From positions 1-16,889 of the forward strand of contig CAKTLJ010000031.1 of assembly GCA_934572535.1 (NCBI GenBank): a stretch of DNA of 16,889 nt. Reading direction: 5' to 3'. A model generated the notes under the pieces. That model did not search any database and was not told the DNA's origin. It saw nothing but the letters and a program-made list of their open reading frames with translations. Source of the DNA: an uncultured Eubacteriales bacterium (GTDB lineage Bacteria > Bacillota > Clostridia > Oscillospirales > Oscillospiraceae). The position numbers were made by a program, and so were the translations under genes. Positions within the stretch are counted from its first letter, which is position 1, and each line of letters opens with the position of its first letter. Shown piece after piece: positions 2,660 through 15,777 of this stretch.

Positions 2660-2693
2660 TGCTGTTGCCATTTTACGTGGGGCGTGGGGCGTT

Positions 2694-3020
2694 GCCTCCG
2701 GCGGCCCCCATTTCTTTCAAGAAATGGGGGGAAAGAAGACCAGGGGTCCCCCCTGGACCCCGTGGGCGTGGGTCAAGACCTGCCGGGTGGTACCTCTGGT
2801 TTACCTGGCCTGCGGCCCTGTGTCGGCAGGCGGGAAGCGGCGCGCCCACCGGCTGGGCGCGCGGGGGCGCATACCCAAAACCTCCCTTGTCAAAGGGAGG
2901 GGGACCGCCGGAACGGCGGTGGAGGGATTCCGGTTCAGGACCAACGTTGCAGAAGGCGGCAAACGCCTGTAGGGTGGGGGCTTCTGGCGGGGCGTTGTGG
3001 GGACCCTCCAGGTGGGTGAT
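2694..3020 (+). repeat. interspersed hairpin repeat, copy 1
   Basis: A 327-base unit that recurs next door and, inverted, near 9 kb. It contains a series of hairpins: CCCCCATTTCT/AGAAATGGGGG (2705-2730), a GGCGCGCCCA/TGGGCGCGCC stem, CCTCCCTT/AAGGGAGG (2881-2900), and CCGCCG/CGGCGG just after. All frames read as low-complexity Gly/Pro/Arg-rich peptides and reading frames differ between copies, so I treat it as non-coding. Similar GC-rich hairpin repeats are common between genes in Oscillospiraceae genomes; that statement is from memory. Confidence 0.85.
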
Positions 3021-3300
3021 GCCTCCGGCGGCCCCCATTTCTTTCAAGAAATGGGGGGAAAGAAGACCAGGGGTCCCCCCTGGGCCCCGTGGGCGTGGGT
3101 CGAAATCTGCGGGGTGGTGCCCCTGGTTGGCCTGGCCTGCGGCCTCGTGTCGGCAGGTGGGAGGCGGCGCGCCCACCAGCTGGGCGCGCGGGTGAGTGGG
3201 TCGTTTGCCGAACGGCTTGGGGTGGACCCACGCCAAAGCCTCCCTTGTCAAAGGGAGGGGGACCGCCGGGACGGCGGTGGAGGGATTCCGGTTTAGGACC
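3021..3300 (+). repeat. interspersed hairpin repeat, copy 2
   Basis: Direct tandem copy of the preceding unit: the 26-base palindrome recurs at 3032-3057, exactly 327 bases after that in copy 1. The CCTCCCTT/AAGGGAGG hairpin recurs at 3239-3258, 358 bases after its counterpart, so this copy carries about 31 extra bases after the GCGCGC stem (around 3190-3230). The hairpin arms are kept while loops vary (CCGGC versus CCAGC, GAA versus GGA), as expected if structure matters. Confidence 0.85.
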
Positions 3301-3372
3301 AACGTGGTTCGTCAACGGGAATCCCCCCGTCACAGCTGGCGCTGTGCCACCCCCCTTTGACAAGGGGGCAGG
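3297..3372 (+). repeat. short repeat R1, left copy
   Basis: A distinct unit of about 76 bases joined to the end of copy 2. It contains GTCACAGCTGGCGCTGTG and the hairpin CCCCCTTTGACAAGGGGG (3351-3368). A nearly identical inverted copy, differing at only a few positions, is at 8772-8851. Confidence 0.85.
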
Positions 3373-3430: not shown

Positions 3431-3506
3431 TGGTGGAGACAACAGAACTCGAATCTGTGACCTCTCGCGTGTGAGGCGAGCGCTCTACCAGCTGAGCTAT
3501 GCCTCC
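3431..3506 (-). tRNA. tRNA-Val (anticodon CAC)
   Basis: A 76-base tRNA with encoded CCA. Acceptor arms GGAGGCA and TGTCTCC pair with one G-U. The anticodon stem CTCGC/GCGAG encloses the loop CTCACAC, giving anticodon CAC. The T arm ACAGA-TTCGAGT-TCTGT is intact. It is the last gene of the three-tRNA operon, 3 bases after tRNA-Glu. Confidence 0.95.
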
Positions 3507-3509
3507 ATG

Positions 3510-3584
3510 TGGTGACCCGTACGGGACTCGAACCCATGTTACCGCCGTGAAAGGGCGGTGTCTTAACCACTTGACCAACGGGCC
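3510..3584 (-). tRNA. tRNA-Glu (anticodon TTC)
   Basis: A 75-base tRNA with encoded CCA. It begins GGCCCGTTGGTC, and the anticodon stem CCGCC/GGCGG encloses CTTTCAC, giving TTC. The T loop is TTCGAGT. Middle gene of the tRNA operon. Confidence 0.95.
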
Positions 3585-3611
3585 GAAATTCCCTCCTCAC
3601 CAGAAGAGAGA

Positions 3612-3688
3612 TGGTAGCGGCAACTGGATTCGAACCAGTGACACTCCGGGTATGAACCGAATGCTCTAGCCAACTGAGCTATGCCGCC
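3612..3688 (-). tRNA. tRNA-Met (anticodon CAT), elongator type
   Basis: A 77-base tRNA with encoded CCA. It begins GGCGGCATAGCTC, and the anticodon loop TTCATAC gives CAT. The first acceptor pair is G-U, and there is no initiator-like run of three G-C pairs flanking the anticodon, so I call it elongator Met. A CAT tRNA modified to read Ile (AUA) is less likely but cannot be excluded by eye. First gene of the operon. Confidence 0.92.
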
Positions 3689-6794: not shown

Positions 6795-6854
6795 GCAAGC
6801 TGACTACCTTTGCGCGAATGCGTTCCCAATTTACAAAAAAGGAGAACTGTCCCC

Positions 6855-7952
6855 ATGGCTTCTAACCTGTTTACCCCCGGCAAGATCGGCACCCTGGAGC
6901 TGCCCAACCGGCTCATCCGCTCCGCCACCCAGGACCCCTTCGGTCAGCGCGACGGCACCTGCGCCCCCGAGCAGGTCGCCCTGTACGGCGAGCTGGCCGC
7001 CAGCGGCCTGGGCGCGATCATCACCGCCTACAGCTACATCTCCCCCGAGGCCCGCTCCACCGGCATCCAGGTGGGCTTCGCCACCGAGGCCCAGCGCGCC
7101 AGCCAGAAGGAAGTGCTCGACGCCGTCCACGCCAAGGGCGGCCGCCTCTTCCTCCAGCTCATGCACGCCGGTATGAACGTCTTCATGCCCGAAAAGCGCG
7201 TGGAGGGCGGCAAGCTGCTCGCTCCCTCCGGCGGCATGACGGCCCCCAACGAGATGACCACCACCGAGATCACCGCCGCCGACATGGACAAGATCTGCGC
7301 CGACTTCGTCAGCGCCGCCCAGGCCGCCAAGGCGCTGGGCTTCGACGGCGTGCAGCTCCACTGCGCCCACGGCTACCTGCTCAGCCAGTTCCTCGACCCC
7401 AACACCAACGCCCGCACCGACGAGTTCGGCGGCTCCGCGGAGAACCGCTTCCGCTTCCCCGCCCGCTGTCTGCGCGCCATCCGCGCGGCCGTGGGCCAGG
7501 ACTTCCCCGTCCTGGTGAAGGTCAACACCAACTGCGCCGGAGAGGCCGACGCCGCCTACGCGGAGGACATCCTCTACTTCTGCCGCCAGTTCGAGGCCCT
7601 GGGCGCGGACGCCATCGAGCTGTCCGGCTACAACTGGCTCGGCCTGGGCAAGAAGAAGGTCCCCACCTTCTACCTCGACCGCGCCGTCGCCGTGCGCAAG
7701 CAGGTCAGCCTGCCCCTCATCCTGGTCGGCGGCATCCGCACCCTGGAGCAGGCCGATCAGATCCTGGCCGCAGGCATCGACTTCGTCTCCGCCTCCCGCC
7801 CCTTCATCTGCCAGCCCGACTTCTACAACGTGCTGGAAAAGGGCGAGGACTCCGCCTGCGTCGGCTGCACCAAATGTCTGGGCAACATCTGGAGCAAGGA
7901 GGGCCGCCGCTGCGTCAAGCACGAGATCCCCGAGGGATTCCCCAAGGCATGA
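6855..7952 (+). CDS. NADH:flavin oxidoreductase, Old Yellow Enzyme family
   Basis: A 365-residue TIM-barrel flavoenzyme. Visible family motifs are PNR (17-19), FLQLMHAG (99-106), LHCAHGYLLSQFL (168-180) with the two His expected to bind substrate, TDEFGGSAENRFRF (188-201), and VGGIRT (291-296) for the FMN phosphate. At the C-terminus the cysteines C335, C338, C341 and C353 form a cluster like the [4Fe-4S] ligands of 2-enoate and 2,4-dienoyl-CoA reductases, but the FAD/NAD domain of those long enzymes is missing. It probably reduces an activated C=C bond; the substrate is unknown. The ATG at 6855 is chosen over an in-frame ATG at 6810 because AAAAGGAGA lies just upstream. Monocistronic, with its own promoter and terminator. 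Confidence 0.88.
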   Translation: MASNLFTPGKIGTLELPNRLIRSATQDPFGQRDGTCAPEQVALYGELAASGLGAIITAYSYISPEARSTGIQVGFATEAQRASQKEVLDAVHAKGGRLFLQLMHAGMNVFMPEKRVEGGKLLAPSGGMTAPNEMTTTEITAADMDKICADFVSAAQAAKALGFDGVQLHCAHGYLLSQFLDPNTNARTDEFGGSAENRFRFPARCLRAIRAAVGQDFPVLVKVNTNCAGEADAAYAEDILYFCRQFEALGADAIELSGYNWLGLGKKKVPTFYLDRAVAVRKQVSLPLILVGGIRTLEQADQILAAGIDFVSASRPFICQPDFYNVLEKGEDSACVGCTKCLGNIWSKEGRRCVKHEIPEGFPKA

Positions 7953-8771: not shown

Positions 8772-8851
8772 GCCCTGCCCCCCTTGTCAAAGGGGGGTGG
8801 CACAGCGTCAGCTGTGACGGGGGGATTCCCGTTGACGAACAACGTTGGTCC
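8772..8851 (-). repeat. short repeat R1, right copy (inverted)
   Basis: Inverted, nearly identical copy of 3297-3372. It contains the hairpin CCCCCCTT-GTCA-AAGGGGGG (8778-8797) and the CACAGCGTCAGCTGTG segment. It starts the right-hand repeat array, 37 bases after the stop of the truncated gene. Confidence 0.85.
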
Positions 8852-8858
8852 TGCCCCG

Positions 8859-9096
8859 GAATCCCTCCACCGCCGTCCCGGCGGTCCCCCTCCCTTTGAC
8901 AAGGGAGGTTTTGGGTAAGCCCCCCCCGCGCGCCCAGCTGGTGGGCGCGCCGCCTCCCACGCCCCGACACAGGGCCGCAGGCCAGGCCAACCAGATGAAC
9001 CACCCCGCAGGGTTTGAACCACCCCAACGGGGTCCAGGGGGGACCCCTGGTCTTCTTTCCCCCCATTTCTTGAAAGAAATGGGGGCCGCCGGAGGC
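8859..9096 (-). repeat. interspersed hairpin repeat, copy 3 (inverted)
   Basis: Reverse-orientation copy of the unit at 2694-3020. The 26-base palindrome is at 9060-9085 and the CCTCCCTT/AAGGGAGG hairpin at 8889-8908, preceded by CCGCCG/CGGCGG. It adjoins R1 just as copy 2 does on the left. Confidence 0.85.
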
Positions 9097-9422
9097 ATTA
9101 CCCACCTGGAGGGTCCCCACAACGCCCCGCCAGAAGTACCACCCTACAGGCGTTTGCCGCCTTCTGCAACGTTGCGCCTAAACCGGAATCCCTCCACCGC
9201 CGTTCCGGCGGTCCCCCTCCCTTTGACAAGGGAGGTTTTGGGTATGCGCCCCTGCGCGCCCAGCCGGTGGGCGCGCCGCCTCCCACCTGCCGACACGGGG
9301 CCGCAGGCCAGGTAAACCAGCCCCACCACCCGGCAGGGCTTGACCCACCCCCACGGGGTCCAGGGGTGCCCCCTGGTCTTCTTTCCCCCCATTTCTTGAA
9401 AGAAATGGGGGCCGCCGGAGGC
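9097..9422 (-). repeat. interspersed hairpin repeat, copy 4 (inverted)
   Basis: Full reverse-orientation unit, 326 bases, including the same GGCGGCAAACGCC segment seen in copy 1. The palindrome is at 9386-9411 and the CCTCCCTT/AAGGGAGG hairpin at 9216-9235. The period (326) is almost equal to that of the left array (327). Confidence 0.85.
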
Positions 9423-9550
9423 AAGACCCACCTGGAGGGTATCCCAAACGCCCCGCCAGAAGCAATGCCCCACCCTACAGGCGTTGCTCCTGCCCCGGAA
9501 TCCCTCCACCGCCGTCCCGGCGGTCCCCCTCCCTTTAACAAGGGAGGTTT
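9423..9550 (-). repeat. interspersed hairpin repeat, partial copy 5 (inverted)
   Basis: A shortened unit keeping the ACCCACCTGGAGGGT segment, the CCGCCG/CGGCGG stem and a CCTCCCTT/AAGGGAGG hairpin (9528-9547), but without the 26-base palindrome and GCGCGC stem. Confidence 0.75.
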
Positions 9551-9584
9551 TTGGCAACACCCACGTAGAGGGTCCATGCAACGC

Positions 9585-10263: not shown

Positions 10264-11139
10264 CTAGAGCGGGCTGGCCTCCACGCAGAAGTCAAAAAAC
10301 CGGTCGATGGCCGCGAGGGGATGGGCCGTCCGCCGCCGGGCGATGTAGAAGTGGCTCTCGCTGTCCGGGGCGGTCAGGGGCAGCAGGCGCACGTCGGGCC
10401 GGTGGACGGGCGGGGTGTCCAGCATGACGGTGATGCCGAAGCCCTGGGCCACCAGCTCCATGATGAAGTCGGCGTCCTCCACCTCGTAGGCGATGCGCCA
10501 CCGCGCCCGCACCGGGGCGAAGACGCGGTCCACCATGTCCCGCTGGCCGCTGAGCCAGGAGTAGGTCACGTGGGGGTAGGGGAGGGTGTCCTCCAGCGTC
10601 ACGCACGCCCGCCCGGCGAGGGGGTGGTCCGGCGGGACCGCCGCCACCAGCCGCCGCCGCTGGATGGAGACGTATTCCAGGGCGGGGTCCTCGATGGGCT
10701 TGGAGCAGAAGCCGATGTCGATCGCGTCCTCCAGCAGCGCCTGGCAGACCGCGCGGGACATGCCCGTGGAGAACTGGAAGTCGCAGCCGGGGTTCTCCTC
10801 CTTGAAGCGGCGGCAGAGGCTGGTCACGGTGGGGGTGATGAGCAGGGGGATGGTCTTGAGCCGGATGGTGCCCACCCCCTCCCGGAGCATCCGGAAGGAG
10901 TGCAGGCAGCTGTCCGCCAGGGAGACGATCTGCTGGGCCTGGGGCAGCAGGGCCAGGCCGTACTGCCCCAGGCGGATGCCCCGGCCGCTCTTTTGGAAGA
11001 GGGGCACGCCCAGCTCCTTCTCCAGGGCGGCGACGGCGTGGCTCAGGCCCGATTGGGAGATGTGCAGCCGTTCGGCGGCCCGGCTGTAGTGCAGCTCCTG
11101 GGACAGGACGAGAAAGTAGCGCAGGTGGTCGATGTTCAC
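10264..11139 (-). CDS. LysR-family transcriptional regulator
   Basis: A 291-residue LTTR with an N-terminal winged helix-turn-helix (NIDHLRYFLVLSQELHYSRA, then AERLHISQSGLSHAVAALEKELG, residues 2-45) and a periplasmic-binding-like effector domain. The start is a GTG at 11139, chosen because AAGGAGG precedes it by 8 bases and the family begins with the helix right there; the more upstream GTG at 11172 would place the ribosome site inside the gene. It is transcribed away from the lactonase-glycyl radical operon across a 151-base gap, the usual LTTR arrangement, so it most likely activates that operon in response to a pathway compound. This is inference from position. Confidence 0.92.
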   Translation of the reverse strand: MNIDHLRYFLVLSQELHYSRAAERLHISQSGLSHAVAALEKELGVPLFQKSGRGIRLGQYGLALLPQAQQIVSLADSCLHSFRMLREGVGTIRLKTIPLLITPTVTSLCRRFKEENPGCDFQFSTGMSRAVCQALLEDAIDIGFCSKPIEDPALEYVSIQRRRLVAAVPPDHPLAGRACVTLEDTLPYPHVTYSWLSGQRDMVDRVFAPVRARWRIAYEVEDADFIMELVAQGFGITVMLDTPPVHRPDVRLLPLTAPDSESHFYIARRRTAHPLAAIDRFFDFCVEASPL

Positions 11140-11160
11140 GGCGGCGTCCTCCTTTTTCTT

Positions 11161-11178
11161 TGATTCTACCACGAATCA
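11161..11178. promoter_or_regulatory. candidate LysR operator
   Basis: TGATTC-TACCAC-GAATCA, a perfect 6-bp inverted repeat just upstream of the lysR start. It contains the T-N11-A spacing favoured by LTTRs (ATTC-N6-GAAT) and overlaps a minus-strand TAGAAT that could be the lysR -10, which would fit autoregulation. Confidence 0.5.
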
Positions 11179-11290: not shown

Positions 11291-12067
11291 ATGGGCATGA
11301 AGATCAGTGTGTTGTATCTGGGCAGGATGGAGTTTCCCAAGTTCCGCCTGATCCAGTGGGAGGACGAGGGGGAGCAGATCAAGTCTCCCGCCGTGGCCCT
11401 GCTCATCCAGCACCCGACCCTGGGCAACATCCTCTACGACACCGGCAACTGCCACGAGCACCAGGCGCTCTACACCCCGGAGATGCAGCACAACTACCCC
11501 GTGGTGGAGTGCATCTCCGTGAAGGAGGCCCTGGCCGCCAAGGGCCTGACGCCCGATGACATCGACCGCATCATCCTCTCCCACCTGCACTTCGACCACG
11601 CCGCCGGGCTGAAGGACTTCGTGGGGACCAAGGCGATCGGGCGGGTGATGGTCTCCGAGGCCGACCTGAAGGAGGCCTGGTTCCGCGTCACCACCGGGGA
11701 CGGCGGCGCGTACATCCGCGCGCTCTTCGACGTGGAGGGCATTCAGTTCGAGCCGGTCAGCGAGGACTGCTGGCTGGCCGACGACCTGGGCCTGTTCGTC
11801 CAGCAGTCCCACACCCCCGGCGTCATCGGCCTGATCCTCAAGACCGAGCACAGCGGCACCATCCTCACCACCAGCGACACGGTCTACTCCCGGGAGAGCT
11901 ATGACCTGGGCCTGCCCCCCGGCGGGACCATCAACAAGACCACCGACGAGTTTTTCGACAACCTGGCCCGCATCCGGGCCATGGAAGCGGCCTATCACGC
12001 GGAGCTTCTCTTCGGCCACGACTTCGACCAGATCCAGGAATGGGTGGCCCGGGGCGTGATCGAGTGA
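11291..12067 (+). CDS. metallo-beta-lactamase fold hydrolase, N-acyl homoserine lactonase-like
   Basis: A 258-residue soluble hydrolase. All seven expected metal ligands are visible: H98, H100, D102 and H103 in SHLHFDHAAG, H174 in HTPG, D196 in TSDT and H243 in FGHDF. The LILSHxHxDHAxG pattern and overall length match the lactonase branch (AiiA, AttM/BlcC), which opens lactone rings. The HTPG motif lacks the usual following His (HTPGVI), but this is not one of the metal ligands. It is first in the operon, 26 bases before the glycyl radical large subunit, so a lactone or ester in that pathway is a more likely substrate than a quorum signal. The ATG at 11291 has AAGGAGAG upstream; an ATG two codons later is possible. 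Confidence 0.85.
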   Translation: MGMKISVLYLGRMEFPKFRLIQWEDEGEQIKSPAVALLIQHPTLGNILYDTGNCHEHQALYTPEMQHNYPVVECISVKEALAAKGLTPDDIDRIILSHLHFDHAAGLKDFVGTKAIGRVMVSEADLKEAWFRVTTGDGGAYIRALFDVEGIQFEPVSEDCWLADDLGLFVQQSHTPGVIGLILKTEHSGTILTTSDTVYSRESYDLGLPPGGTINKTTDEFFDNLARIRAMEAAYHAELLFGHDFDQIQEWVARGVIE

Positions 12068-12093: not shown

Positions 12094-14355
12094 ATGAGCC
12101 ATACCCCCACCGCCGGAGCAGCCCTGGGCAACGAACTGCGCGCCGGGACCGTTGCCAAGGTCGGCAGCACCAAGCGCATCCAGGAACTCAACGGGATGCT
12201 CCACGCCAACCGGCCCAACGTGGACATCACCCGCGCCAGGGCCTACACCAAGGTCTACAAGGAAACGGAGGGTCTGCCCAGCCTCACGCGGCGCTACAAG
12301 GCCTCCGCCGAGGTCTACCGCACCCTGAGCGACGTGGTCTACGACCACGAGCAGCTGGTCGGCTGGCCCACCAAGCGCATCCGCGGGGCCAACTTCGCCA
12401 TCGAGCTGCACGCCCACTGGCTGGCCGACGACCTGCCCAACCTGCGGGAGCGGACCTATGACCCCTTCGAGATCAGCGACGAGGACTACCGGGAGCTGGA
12501 GGAGGAGCTGCTGCCCTACTGGAAGGACAAGACCATGGCGGTCCAGTGGGGCCACTACGTCAGCCGCGAGGAGTGGGAGCGCGGGCAGTTCGGCGGCGTC
12601 TCCGACGTGTCCAACTACCTCTGTGCCAACGGGTCCCACTTCATCCCCGCCTGGACGGACGTGATCCGCCACGGGTTTGGGAAGTATTACGACCAGGCCA
12701 AGGCCCTGCTGGCCGGGCTGGACCCCAACGACCCGGCCTGCATCGACAAGCGCGTCTTTTACACCGGCATCCTTGAGGTGCTGGAGGCCATCCGCGACTG
12801 GGGCGCGCGCCTTTCGGCCTCCTGCGCCCGCAAGGCGGCGGGGGAGAAGGACCCCGTCCGCAAGCGGGAGCTGGAGGAGATGGCCGCCATGATGCAGCGG
12901 GTCCCCTGGGGCCCGGCCACCTCCTTCCGCGACGCCTGCGAGACCGCCTGGGCCGTCTGCTTCTTCCTCTTCGTGGAGGGGGCGGGACCGTCCATCACCT
13001 GGGGCCGGTTTGACCAGTATATGTACCCCTACTACCGGGCCGACGTGGAGAAGGGGGTCCTCACCCCCGAGGGGGCCATGGAGCTGATCGAGGAGCTGTA
13101 CGTCCGCGTGACCTCCAACGTCTGGTTCCAGTCCACCCAGATGGCCTACATCTTCGGCGGCTACTACCGCTACCCCCACCTGGACGTGGGCGGCCTGGAC
13201 GAAAACGGCAAGGACGCCTCCAACGAGCTGTCCTACCTCTGCCTGCGGGCCATGCGCTACGCGAAGACCACCTCGCCCGCCGTCTGCCTCATGCTGCACC
13301 AGAAGACCCCGGACGCCCTGCTCTACGAGGCCTGCGAGCTGGCCGCCGAGGGCATGGGGCACCCCTCCTTCTTCAACTGCGAGAGCCTCTACGACATGCT
13401 GGCCCACCGGGCCGCCGGGCCGGACGGCTACTCCCACTACACCCGCAGGGAGATCCTCCGCTACGGCTCGCCCATCGGCTGCGTGGAGCCGGGGGCGGAG
13501 GGCCTGCAATATGGCCACACCGACTCGGGCATCATCAACGTCGCGGGCGCTGCCCTCATGGCGGTGACGAACGGGGTCATGCCCGTCGAGTCCGACAACC
13601 TCTTCGCCGGGAAGCTCCTGACCTTCGAGACCGGCGCGCCGGAGTCCTTCGAGACCTTTGACCAGTTCTACGCCGCCGTCAAGGCCCAGATCAAGTACGC
13701 CATCGAGGAGGCCCACGCCAACCTGCTCGTGTGCGAAAAGCTCCTGGCCGAGCAGTTCAACCTGCCCACCTTCACCGTCCTGCTGGACGGGGCGCTGGAG
13801 CGGGCCGTGGACGCCACCGCTGGGGGCGCGAAGGTCAACATCGGCCCCACCATGCAGATGGTGGGCTTCGGGACCATGGTGGACTCGGTCGCCGCCATCA
13901 AGCGGGTGGTCTTTGAGGAGAAGGCGGCCACCCTGCGGACGGTCTGCGACGCCTGCATGAACAACTTCCGGGGATATGAGGACCTGCGGACCCGGCTCCG
14001 CGCCGCCCCGAAGTACGGCAACGACGACGACTTTGCCGACGACATCGCCGTGGACCTCTGGAAGTGGTTCGCCGACTGCACCGTGGGCCTCAGGATGTAC
14101 CGCGGGCACTACTGCGACGCCGCCATCCAGATGGTCCAGTCCAACGTGGGCTACGGCGCGATGACCGGGGCCACCCCCAACGGCCGCCTGGCCGGTATGC
14201 CCATCTCCGACACCATGTCCGCCACCCAGCAGGCCGACACCCACGGGCCGACCGCCGCCGCCCGGAGCTATGGCAAGCTGGACTTCCCGGCCTACACCAA
14301 CGGCACCCTGCTGAACATGTGGATCAGCCAGTCCGAGCTGTTGGAAAAGGCGTAA
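12094..14355 (+). CDS. glycyl radical enzyme large (catalytic) subunit lacking the radical loop
   Basis: A 753-residue PFL-like barrel protein. The active-site thiyl Cys is C463 in IGCVEP with the acid/base E465, the Cys-x-Glu arrangement of non-PFL glycyl radical enzymes (decarboxylases, dehydratases, C-S and C-N lyases); PFL has Cys-Cys. Other family landmarks are WGRFDQYMYPYY (303-314), GGAKVNIGP (577-585), GTMVDSVAAIKRVVFEE (593-609) and GATPNGRLAG (692-701). The chain ends after KLDFPAYTNGTLLNMWIS, where ordinary enzymes continue with some 90 residues carrying the RVxGYS loop. That part is encoded by the next gene. ATG 12094 has AAAGGAGCGG upstream. The substrate cannot be assigned; the sequence after GCVEP (GAEG) is unlike the QxPGK of CutC and glycerol dehydratase. 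Confidence 0.92.
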   Translation: MSHTPTAGAALGNELRAGTVAKVGSTKRIQELNGMLHANRPNVDITRARAYTKVYKETEGLPSLTRRYKASAEVYRTLSDVVYDHEQLVGWPTKRIRGANFAIELHAHWLADDLPNLRERTYDPFEISDEDYRELEEELLPYWKDKTMAVQWGHYVSREEWERGQFGGVSDVSNYLCANGSHFIPAWTDVIRHGFGKYYDQAKALLAGLDPNDPACIDKRVFYTGILEVLEAIRDWGARLSASCARKAAGEKDPVRKRELEEMAAMMQRVPWGPATSFRDACETAWAVCFFLFVEGAGPSITWGRFDQYMYPYYRADVEKGVLTPEGAMELIEELYVRVTSNVWFQSTQMAYIFGGYYRYPHLDVGGLDENGKDASNELSYLCLRAMRYAKTTSPAVCLMLHQKTPDALLYEACELAAEGMGHPSFFNCESLYDMLAHRAAGPDGYSHYTRREILRYGSPIGCVEPGAEGLQYGHTDSGIINVAGAALMAVTNGVMPVESDNLFAGKLLTFETGAPESFETFDQFYAAVKAQIKYAIEEAHANLLVCEKLLAEQFNLPTFTVLLDGALERAVDATAGGAKVNIGPTMQMVGFGTMVDSVAAIKRVVFEEKAATLRTVCDACMNNFRGYEDLRTRLRAAPKYGNDDDFADDIAVDLWKWFADCTVGLRMYRGHYCDAAIQMVQSNVGYGAMTGATPNGRLAGMPISDTMSATQQADTHGPTAAARSYGKLDFPAYTNGTLLNMWISQSELLEKA

Positions 14356-14375
14356 CGCGAGAAAGGAGCCTGACC

Positions 14376-14672
14376 ATGACCACCATTCGTGACGTCCCGC
14401 TGGACTGCCCCGAGGCCACCTACGTGGCGCCCGTCTACAAGGAGGCGGGGATGCGCAACCTCACCAACCTGGTGCGGACCATGCTCAACGACTACGGGGT
14501 CTACCACGTCCAGTTCAACACCATCAACAAGGAGACCCTCCTCGACGCCAAGGCCCACCCCGAGAACTATCCCACCCTGATGGTCCGGGTGGCGGGCTAC
14601 AGCGTCTACTGGACGGACATCGCCGAACGGGTCCAGGACGACATCATCAGCCGGACCGAGCATACCTTTTAA
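14376..14672 (+). CDS. separate glycyl radical subunit
   Basis: A 98-residue protein made of the C-terminal half of a Gly_radical domain. HVQFNTINKETLLDAKAHPE is at residues 44-63 and the radical loop VRVAGYSVYW at 70-79, with G74 the expected radical site, followed by QDDIISRTEH. Residues 26-41 (MRNLTNLVRTMLNDYG) are the helix that normally follows the domain's variable loop, and residues 1-25 are an extension with no counterpart in single-chain enzymes. It starts 20 bases after the large-subunit stop, in another frame, with GAAAGGAG 7 bases before the ATG. GrcA/YfiD (about 127 residues) is a spare part for cleaved PFL; here the large subunit has no loop of its own, so this should be an obligate subunit. 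Confidence 0.93.
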   Translation: MTTIRDVPLDCPEATYVAPVYKEAGMRNLTNLVRTMLNDYGVYHVQFNTINKETLLDAKAHPENYPTLMVRVAGYSVYWTDIAERVQDDIISRTEHTF

Positions 14673-14829: not shown

Positions 14830-15777
14830 ATGACCGAGAACCGCGCCGTTTTATTTGACATCGGCCGCTTCCGCAACGCGGACGGGCCGGGCATCCGCAC
14901 CATCCTCTTTTTCAAGGGCTGCCCCCTGCGCTGCCGGTGGTGCAGCAACCCCTTCGGCCTCTCCGCCGCGCCGCAGCTCGTGGTGAACCCCGCCAGGTGT
15001 ACCGGCTGCGGGACCTGCGCCCAGGTCTGCCCGCAGGGGGTGAACACCGCGGGGGAGCCGGTCCGGGTGGACTTCGCCGCCTGCACCCGCTGCGGCGCCT
15101 GCATCGCCCGCTGTCCCGCCGGGGCGCGGATGCTCTCCGGCCGGAGCTACACCCCGCAGGAGTTGTACCGGGAGGCCGCCAAGGACGCCGCCTTCTACCG
15201 GAAGGGCGGGGGCGGCGTGACCCTCTCCGGCGGGGAGGTCCTGCTCCAGCACGAGGCCGCGGCGGAGACCCTGCGCCTCTGCCGGGCCAACTACCTCAAC
15301 ACCTGCATCGAGACCTCGGGCTATGCCGCCTGGGAGCAGCTCTGGTCCGTGGCCCGGCATTGCCACACGGTTTTTTATGACCTCAAGCACCTGGACCCCG
15401 AAAAGCACCGGGAGGGGACCGGCGTGTCCAACGAGAGGATCCTGGAGAATCTCCGGCGGCTCTGCGCGGCCCTGCCGCAGCGGCACGGGCGGGTCATCGT
15501 GCGCCTGCCGCTCATCCCCGGCTACAACGACGATGACGAGGCCGTCGCCGCCGCCGCGCGCTTCGTCGCCGCGCTGCCCGGGCGGCCGGAGCTGAACCTG
15601 CTGCCCTACCACGACCTGGGCGAGAGCAAGTACGAGATGATCGGGCTGGACTACGCCCTGCCCGGCCTGGAGAGCCGGAAGGGGAGGGACCCGCGCCTGC
15701 TGGCGCTCCAGGCCCTCTGCCAGCGCTGCGCCCCCGAAACGCGGGTCAGTCTGGGGGGCGACGCGATCGCCCTGTGA
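14830..15777 (+). CDS. glycyl radical enzyme activating enzyme (radical SAM)
   Basis: A 315-residue activase that uses S-adenosylmethionine to abstract H from the glycine of the partner. The radical-SAM cluster ligands are C31, C35 and C38 (CPLRCRWC). Two ferredoxin-type [4Fe-4S] motifs follow: C57, C60, C63, C67P and C85, C88, C91, C95P. This double-cluster insert is typical of activases of non-PFL enzymes (HpdA, CutD, GldA-AE type). VTLSGGE, the GGE motif, is near residue 135 and DLKHLDPEKHREGTG further on. The position usually reading NPES is NPFG. The ATG at 14830 follows GGGGAGGGG. The 157-base gap with two hairpins, against 20 bases between the enzyme subunits, suggests separate dosing. 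Confidence 0.95.
   Translation: MTENRAVLFDIGRFRNADGPGIRTILFFKGCPLRCRWCSNPFGLSAAPQLVVNPARCTGCGTCAQVCPQGVNTAGEPVRVDFAACTRCGACIARCPAGARMLSGRSYTPQELYREAAKDAAFYRKGGGGVTLSGGEVLLQHEAAAETLRLCRANYLNTCIETSGYAAWEQLWSVARHCHTVFYDLKHLDPEKHREGTGVSNERILENLRRLCAALPQRHGRVIVRLPLIPGYNDDDEAVAAAARFVAALPGRPELNLLPYHDLGESKYEMIGLDYALPGLESRKGRDPRLLALQALCQRCAPETRVSLGGDAIAL

Follow-up and report, generated by a model that had tools for sequence, protein, structure and literature searches.

Genes at the locus

The window, i.e. the whole stretch of 16,889 nucleotides under analysis (contig CAKTLJ010000031.1, from an uncultured Eubacteriales bacterium), carries the two genes of a predicted glycyl radical enzyme (GRE), together with an activase gene and other neighbours:

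10264-11172, minus strand: divergently oriented LysR gene, whose product probably regulates the operon
11291-12067, plus strand: metallo-beta-lactamase (MBL)-fold hydrolase (Pfam PF00753), lactonase-like, probable operon member
12094-14355, plus strand: large subunit, GRE barrel, 753 aa, with the Cys loop C463-V-E465, stopping short of the radical loop
14356-14375, plus strand: spacer before the small gene, 20 nt, with the Shine-Dalgarno sequence AAAGGAG
14376-14672, plus strand: small subunit, glycyl radical chain, 98 aa, with RVAGYS (G74) and a conserved N-terminal extension
14830-15777, plus strand: radical SAM GRE-activating enzyme (TIGR02494, 298 bits for a cut-off of 174)

The sole Pfam match of the large chain (P0001) is to the PFL-like domain PF02901 (509 bits, positions 3-647 of the 647 of the profile), and the Pfam scan reported no Gly_radical match in this protein. 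The barrel motif residues C463 and E465 are where the first-pass annotation had them. That annotation also had the protein end after TNGTLLNMWIS, which is incorrect, as eight more residues (QSELLEKA) follow. The RVAGYS motif with G74 lies, as had been proposed, on a gene of its own, in another frame, 20 nt past the TAA of the large gene and with its own start and ribosome-binding site. The product of this gene (P0002) matches a single Pfam domain, Gly_radical, with the best stretch at positions 49-105 of 106, and an equal-length match of residues 41-94 to residues 701-754 of E. coli PFL makes G74 the equivalent of G734. In the N-terminal segment of the small chain, Y16, Y21 and G25 are invariant among 34 rows, and P12, P19 and K22 are kept in at least 90% of them. 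A structural model of the small chain (29-row alignment, pLDDT 81.4) resembles GRE C-termini and YfiD.

Features of the eliminase class (the C-x-E motif and an eliminase barrel) are present in P0001. All 32 split rows, three of which represent a single gene, keep C463 and E465, and H182, which aligns with His160 of HypD and Asp216 of CutC, is found in all 28 split rows with a residue at that position. P0001 does not qualify as a CutC: it scores 462.6 bits against TIGR04394, below the cut-off of 1050, and sequence alignment puts H182, N174 and I480 in place of the CutC substrate-site residues Asp216, Tyr208 and Tyr506 (whose roles are taken from passages of PMC8473560).

Away from the GRE genes, the window holds GC-rich dispersed repeats at 2687-3368 and 8779-9564, direct and inverted, with arms of up to 291 nt that are 94% complementary and that give rise to long spurious ORFs. 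Three tRNA genes, Val(cac), Glu(ttc) and Met(cat), lie at 3431-3688 on the minus strand. Downstream of the activase gene starts a ribosomal protein operon (S10 and L3, named by reading the sequence).

Conservation and spread of the split

A pattern scan of one genome per species (84,980 species) yielded 11 loci, with relatives at 58-94%. Together with later genome searches, it gave 19 distinct large-small pairs: the window, L001-L005, L006 (two), L007-L010, L011 (two, one large gene being cut by the contig end), L099, L100, L101 (two) and L102. The check suggested by the first-pass annotation was a search for adjacent pairs of PFL-domain and Gly_radical proteins across species. All 19 pairs are split alike, with a separate small gene directly downstream of the large one, and the split is thus not limited to one genome. 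All pairs come from Bacillota, including one from a member of the Bacilli. Their barrels share about 58% identity or more with P0001, versus at most 38% for the listed single-chain matches.

Both genes are under purifying selection: dN/dS is about 0.09 for each between the window and L001, and ranges from 0.03 to 0.18 in the nine comparisons yielding a ratio under a simple NG86 count (three were saturated). With 19 of 19 pairs and such low ratios, the two-gene split that had been noticed in the window is more than a chance event. Distances between large chains and between small chains are correlated (r 0.95, 78 comparisons among 13 pairs), although shared descent alone would give the same result. 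Among the P0001 relatives listed, 120 of 120 are 752-762 aa long and carry PF02901 only; the same holds for the 120 large-chain relatives listed for a distant clade B of split GREs (719-762 aa), a set that overlaps the former. No fused large and small member of the clade occurs among these matches; this, along with the conserved adjacent pairs, bears out the earlier proposal of an obligate two-piece enzyme.

The split GRE is sparse among species. In the class of G004, the small-chain profile A1 detects a small-chain-type match in one genome out of 391 (E 8.5e-57), the next match in that class (2.8e-29) falling within an 866-aa frame, and in one of 200 genomes of the class of G008, whose genus sample is G008 alone. 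Similarly, the family of G004 and G006 gives 3/250 and 3/200 (the same three genomes), and that of G009 and G1004 gives 4/197 and 4/296 (the same four). A search of proteins gave 355 relatives of the small chain, of which 120 were listed. Counted over sequence records, the split clade is no rarity: P0162, an E. gabavorous cluster, lies on at least 1000 contigs. Record titles of the pattern-scan loci name goat rectum, sheep colon and water buffalo abomasum as sources. The small-chain profile found no relatives in viral_contigs, and no split-GRE relatives were found on plasmids, where P0001 at E 1e-100 retrieved only two Klebsiella CutC records (31-32%).

The window, L002, L004, L006, L008-L011 and L099-L102 have an activase gene next to their pairs; at the corresponding site in L001, L003, L005 and L007, gene calling took opposite-strand frames. 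Proteins similar to the LysR regulator occur in other loci, and proteins similar to the MBL-fold hydrolase, whose closest NCBIfam models are lactonases (each under cut-off), in six. Metabolic neighbours vary between loci, their names being Pfam matches that missed NCBIfam cut-offs; the clade-B operon in L099, for instance, includes aldehyde dehydrogenase and phosphate butyryltransferase-like genes. OYE-type flavoenzyme genes lie near split GREs in the window (6810-7952), L101 (33-1913) and L103 (5029-7574, alongside a DUF3237 gene). Both kinds of gene are possible pathway partners; the nearest models for the OYE-type genes of L101 and L103 are BaiCD and bilirubin reductase, below cut-offs.

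Three genomes, represented by L006/L103 (9058-17100), L011 (1-4938) and L101 (4386-10662), each hold two tandem split pairs, near which one activase gene was seen. In L011 and L101, one of the tandem pairs is of clade B, followed by a gene that, judged by eye, resembles a sigma-54-type regulator. One source annotates a clade-B barrel (P0250) and a small chain (P0105) as choline trimethylamine-lyase, and several small chains as formate C-acetyltransferase. Since P0001, the barrel that was scanned, misses both the CutC cut-off and the choline-site residues, surveys may count the wrong function.

Ordinary GREs are present as well in six of nine host genomes, as Gly_radical matches inside frames of 738-831 aa. 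Five of ten small-chain-profile matches in open frames under 700 aa were checked for other splits. One of the loci seen, L104 (1657-4179, genome G119), may be a split that arose independently, in a different lineage of GREs: its 746-aa barrel, 28% identical to P0001, ends at a TGA with GAGGAGG right after, and the radical domain continues in the same frame to near the contig end. This split is known from one genome, and a nonsense mutation is as likely. Candidates in G258, G150, G291 and G278 were rejected, as they look like broken or truncated genes.

Descent and junction of the two chains

Among 299 genomes of the phylum, the best matches of P0001 are two split barrels (88 and 76%), followed by single chains at 38% or less. 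In a quick tree of 45 barrel rows, the 17 split rows (one gene appearing twice) form one clade on a branch of length 1.4 with an SH-aLRT support of 100. Several single-chain rows are long, so that any placement of a neighbour to the clade is tentative. A tree of 58 radical domains, weak because it relies on 79 columns only, groups the 18 split rows (again with one gene twice; support 99) among dehydratase-type GREs, and places GrcA3 with PFL (100), apart from the split radical domains. In eight of nine host genomes, moreover, the barrel gene ends in a stretch that weakly matches the first half of Gly_radical, and the second half corresponds to the small protein in all nine; the barrel-end matches mostly span positions 2 to 46-48 (2-55 in G009, and 2-76 through stops in G006). 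Given its placement among dehydratase-type GREs, with GrcA3 going to PFL, the small chain looks like the cut-off C-terminal end of its own lineage and not a recruited spare part.

The junction itself differs between split and single-chain enzymes. At position 743 of the large chain, all 32 split rows (three of them from one gene) have W, while none of 28 single-chain rows does, all of these having K or R. In the window pair, the junction spans 54 residues, versus a median of 30 (range 29-41) in 28 single chains. The W743 end, the longer junction and the N-terminal segment of the small chain are the best candidates for a docking interface. A joined single-chain proxy model, built from 25 rows of which four extend across the small domain, has a mean pLDDT of 69.8, with residues 682-813 below 50, and does not place the radical domain in the barrel. 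None of the alignments listed between it and solved GREs extends beyond about residue 756, and the whole-length Foldseek rmsd is about 20. With so few rows across the small domain, the model does not count as evidence against docking.

Proposed mechanism and relation to known systems

Two genes with separate translation signals, a conserved split, a neighbouring activase and the catalytic residues are established by sequence, and we regard the pair as very probably a GRE that needs both chains and belongs to the eliminase (dehydratase-like) class. By analogy with the rest of the family, the small chain would dock on the large one at the site that the C-terminal radical domain occupies in ordinary GREs, with its extra N-terminal segment and the W743 end of the large chain contributing to the contact. 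The activase would abstract a hydrogen from G74, probably with the small chain on the barrel and the loop swung out, and the G74 radical would then generate a thiyl radical at C463. This radical may act on a small hydroxylated substrate by eliminating a leaving group, for which water is the likeliest candidate; the product is probably an aldehyde or a ketone. Oxygen damage at G74 would spoil just the 98-aa chain, which could conceivably be replaced.

Several other explanations have to be weighed against such an enzyme. A sequencing error, an assembly error or a pseudogene in the window genome might be suspected, since 9 of the 11 pattern-scan loci come from metagenome assemblies. However, the identical split is found in the named isolates Evtepia gabavorous KLE1738 (Clostridia) and Vagococcus acidifermentans LMG 24798 (Bacilli), and in every other pair, with low dN/dS. 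Alternatively, a frameshift or stop read-through could join both parts into one normal chain, as the short spacers and the placement of the parts like halves of one protein would allow. The 13 measured pairs speak against such recoding: they combine three frame relations (0, 1 and 2), three stops (TAA, TGA and TAG) and spacers of 13-60 nt, each with a start and a Shine-Dalgarno-like site ahead of the small gene. Taken with the 19 pairs split alike, this variety excludes a sequencing error, error of any kind in the window genome having next to no probability, and makes recoding very unlikely. There is a slim chance that the small protein is a spare part of the GrcA/YfiD type beside a GRE gene damaged by truncation. 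Free-standing radical-domain proteins of about this size are known to act as spare parts, and P0002 weakly matches the GrcA3, GrcA2 and GrcA models, but its scores (75.4 of 158, 63.6 of 145 and 47.3 of 170 bits, respectively) are all far under the cut-offs. Moreover, the short radical-domain alignment sets P0002 with dehydratase-type GREs and GrcA3 with PFL, the matches listed include no fused clade member, and selection maintains both genes.

The remaining alternative opposes only the replacement step: the pair may be a permanent heterodimer, born of an old, nearly neutral gene fission, in which the radical chain neither exchanges nor is activated on its own. A single origin fits the barrel tree, the gene pairing is tight, and NrdJa/NrdJb is believed to function as two heterodimers joined in a dimer (PMC4520616). 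The lack of a fused member among the matches listed, and a longer junction that hints at a made-for-purpose interface, weigh somewhat on the other side without excluding it. We hold this to be a serious possibility, if a little short of probable. It is conceivable, although rather doubtful, that the two-chain enzyme instead works with an exchangeable radical cartridge: the activase would charge small chains, fresh ones could take over from those that oxygen has damaged, and where a genome has two tandem pairs but a single activase seen close by, a small chain may even supply several barrels. The first-pass annotation had likewise proposed a radical part that can dissociate, be activated on its own and be replaced once damaged, which goes beyond what the sequences show. 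In excerpts of PMC8683613, YfiD activation is undetectable without its partner, cleaved PFL, which by analogy would argue against a freely charged, separately activated radical chain.

A C-terminal radical domain is described as "found in all GREs" in PMC7077986. The split pairs have the other marks of the family, namely a PFL-like barrel with a Cys loop, an RVxGY loop with the radical Gly and a cognate radical SAM activase gene, but carry the loop on a separate gene in all 19 cases. The first-pass annotation named no characterised enzyme of this design; searches of an open-access library gave no natural two-chain GRE with its radical domain on its own gene among the papers listed. Such an enzyme would allow the radical part to be added, removed, mutated or replaced in vitro, opening activation, loop opening, radical transfer and oxygen damage to stepwise study.

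Known GREs with small extra subunits, such as 4-hydroxyphenylacetate decarboxylase and benzylsuccinate synthase, keep the radical domain on the large subunit, and their small subunits are other, iron-sulphur proteins. The GRE eliminases (1,2-propanediol and glycerol dehydratase, CutC, HypD and IslA) have it on the same chain, unlike the split pair; the single-chain matches listed are no more than 38% identical to P0001, and the CutC pocket residues differ. YfiD/GrcA and T4 Y06I, the spare parts of PFL, come closer, as they are free small radical-domain proteins that complete a barrel and are served by an activase (PMC8683613, in the same excerpts), as is predicted for the small chain of the split pair. 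Those proteins rescue oxygen-cleaved PFL, and intact PFL needs no partner; the split-pair barrel, in contrast, has no radical loop of its own and is thus incomplete before any oxygen damage, and its small chain belongs to a different lineage in the radical-domain tree. Finally, NrdJa/NrdJb, the split class II ribonucleotide reductase of Pseudomonas aeruginosa, is likewise a radical enzyme cut into two genes with both chains needed (PMC4520616), but it uses B12 and no glycyl radical, and its cut separates other functions.
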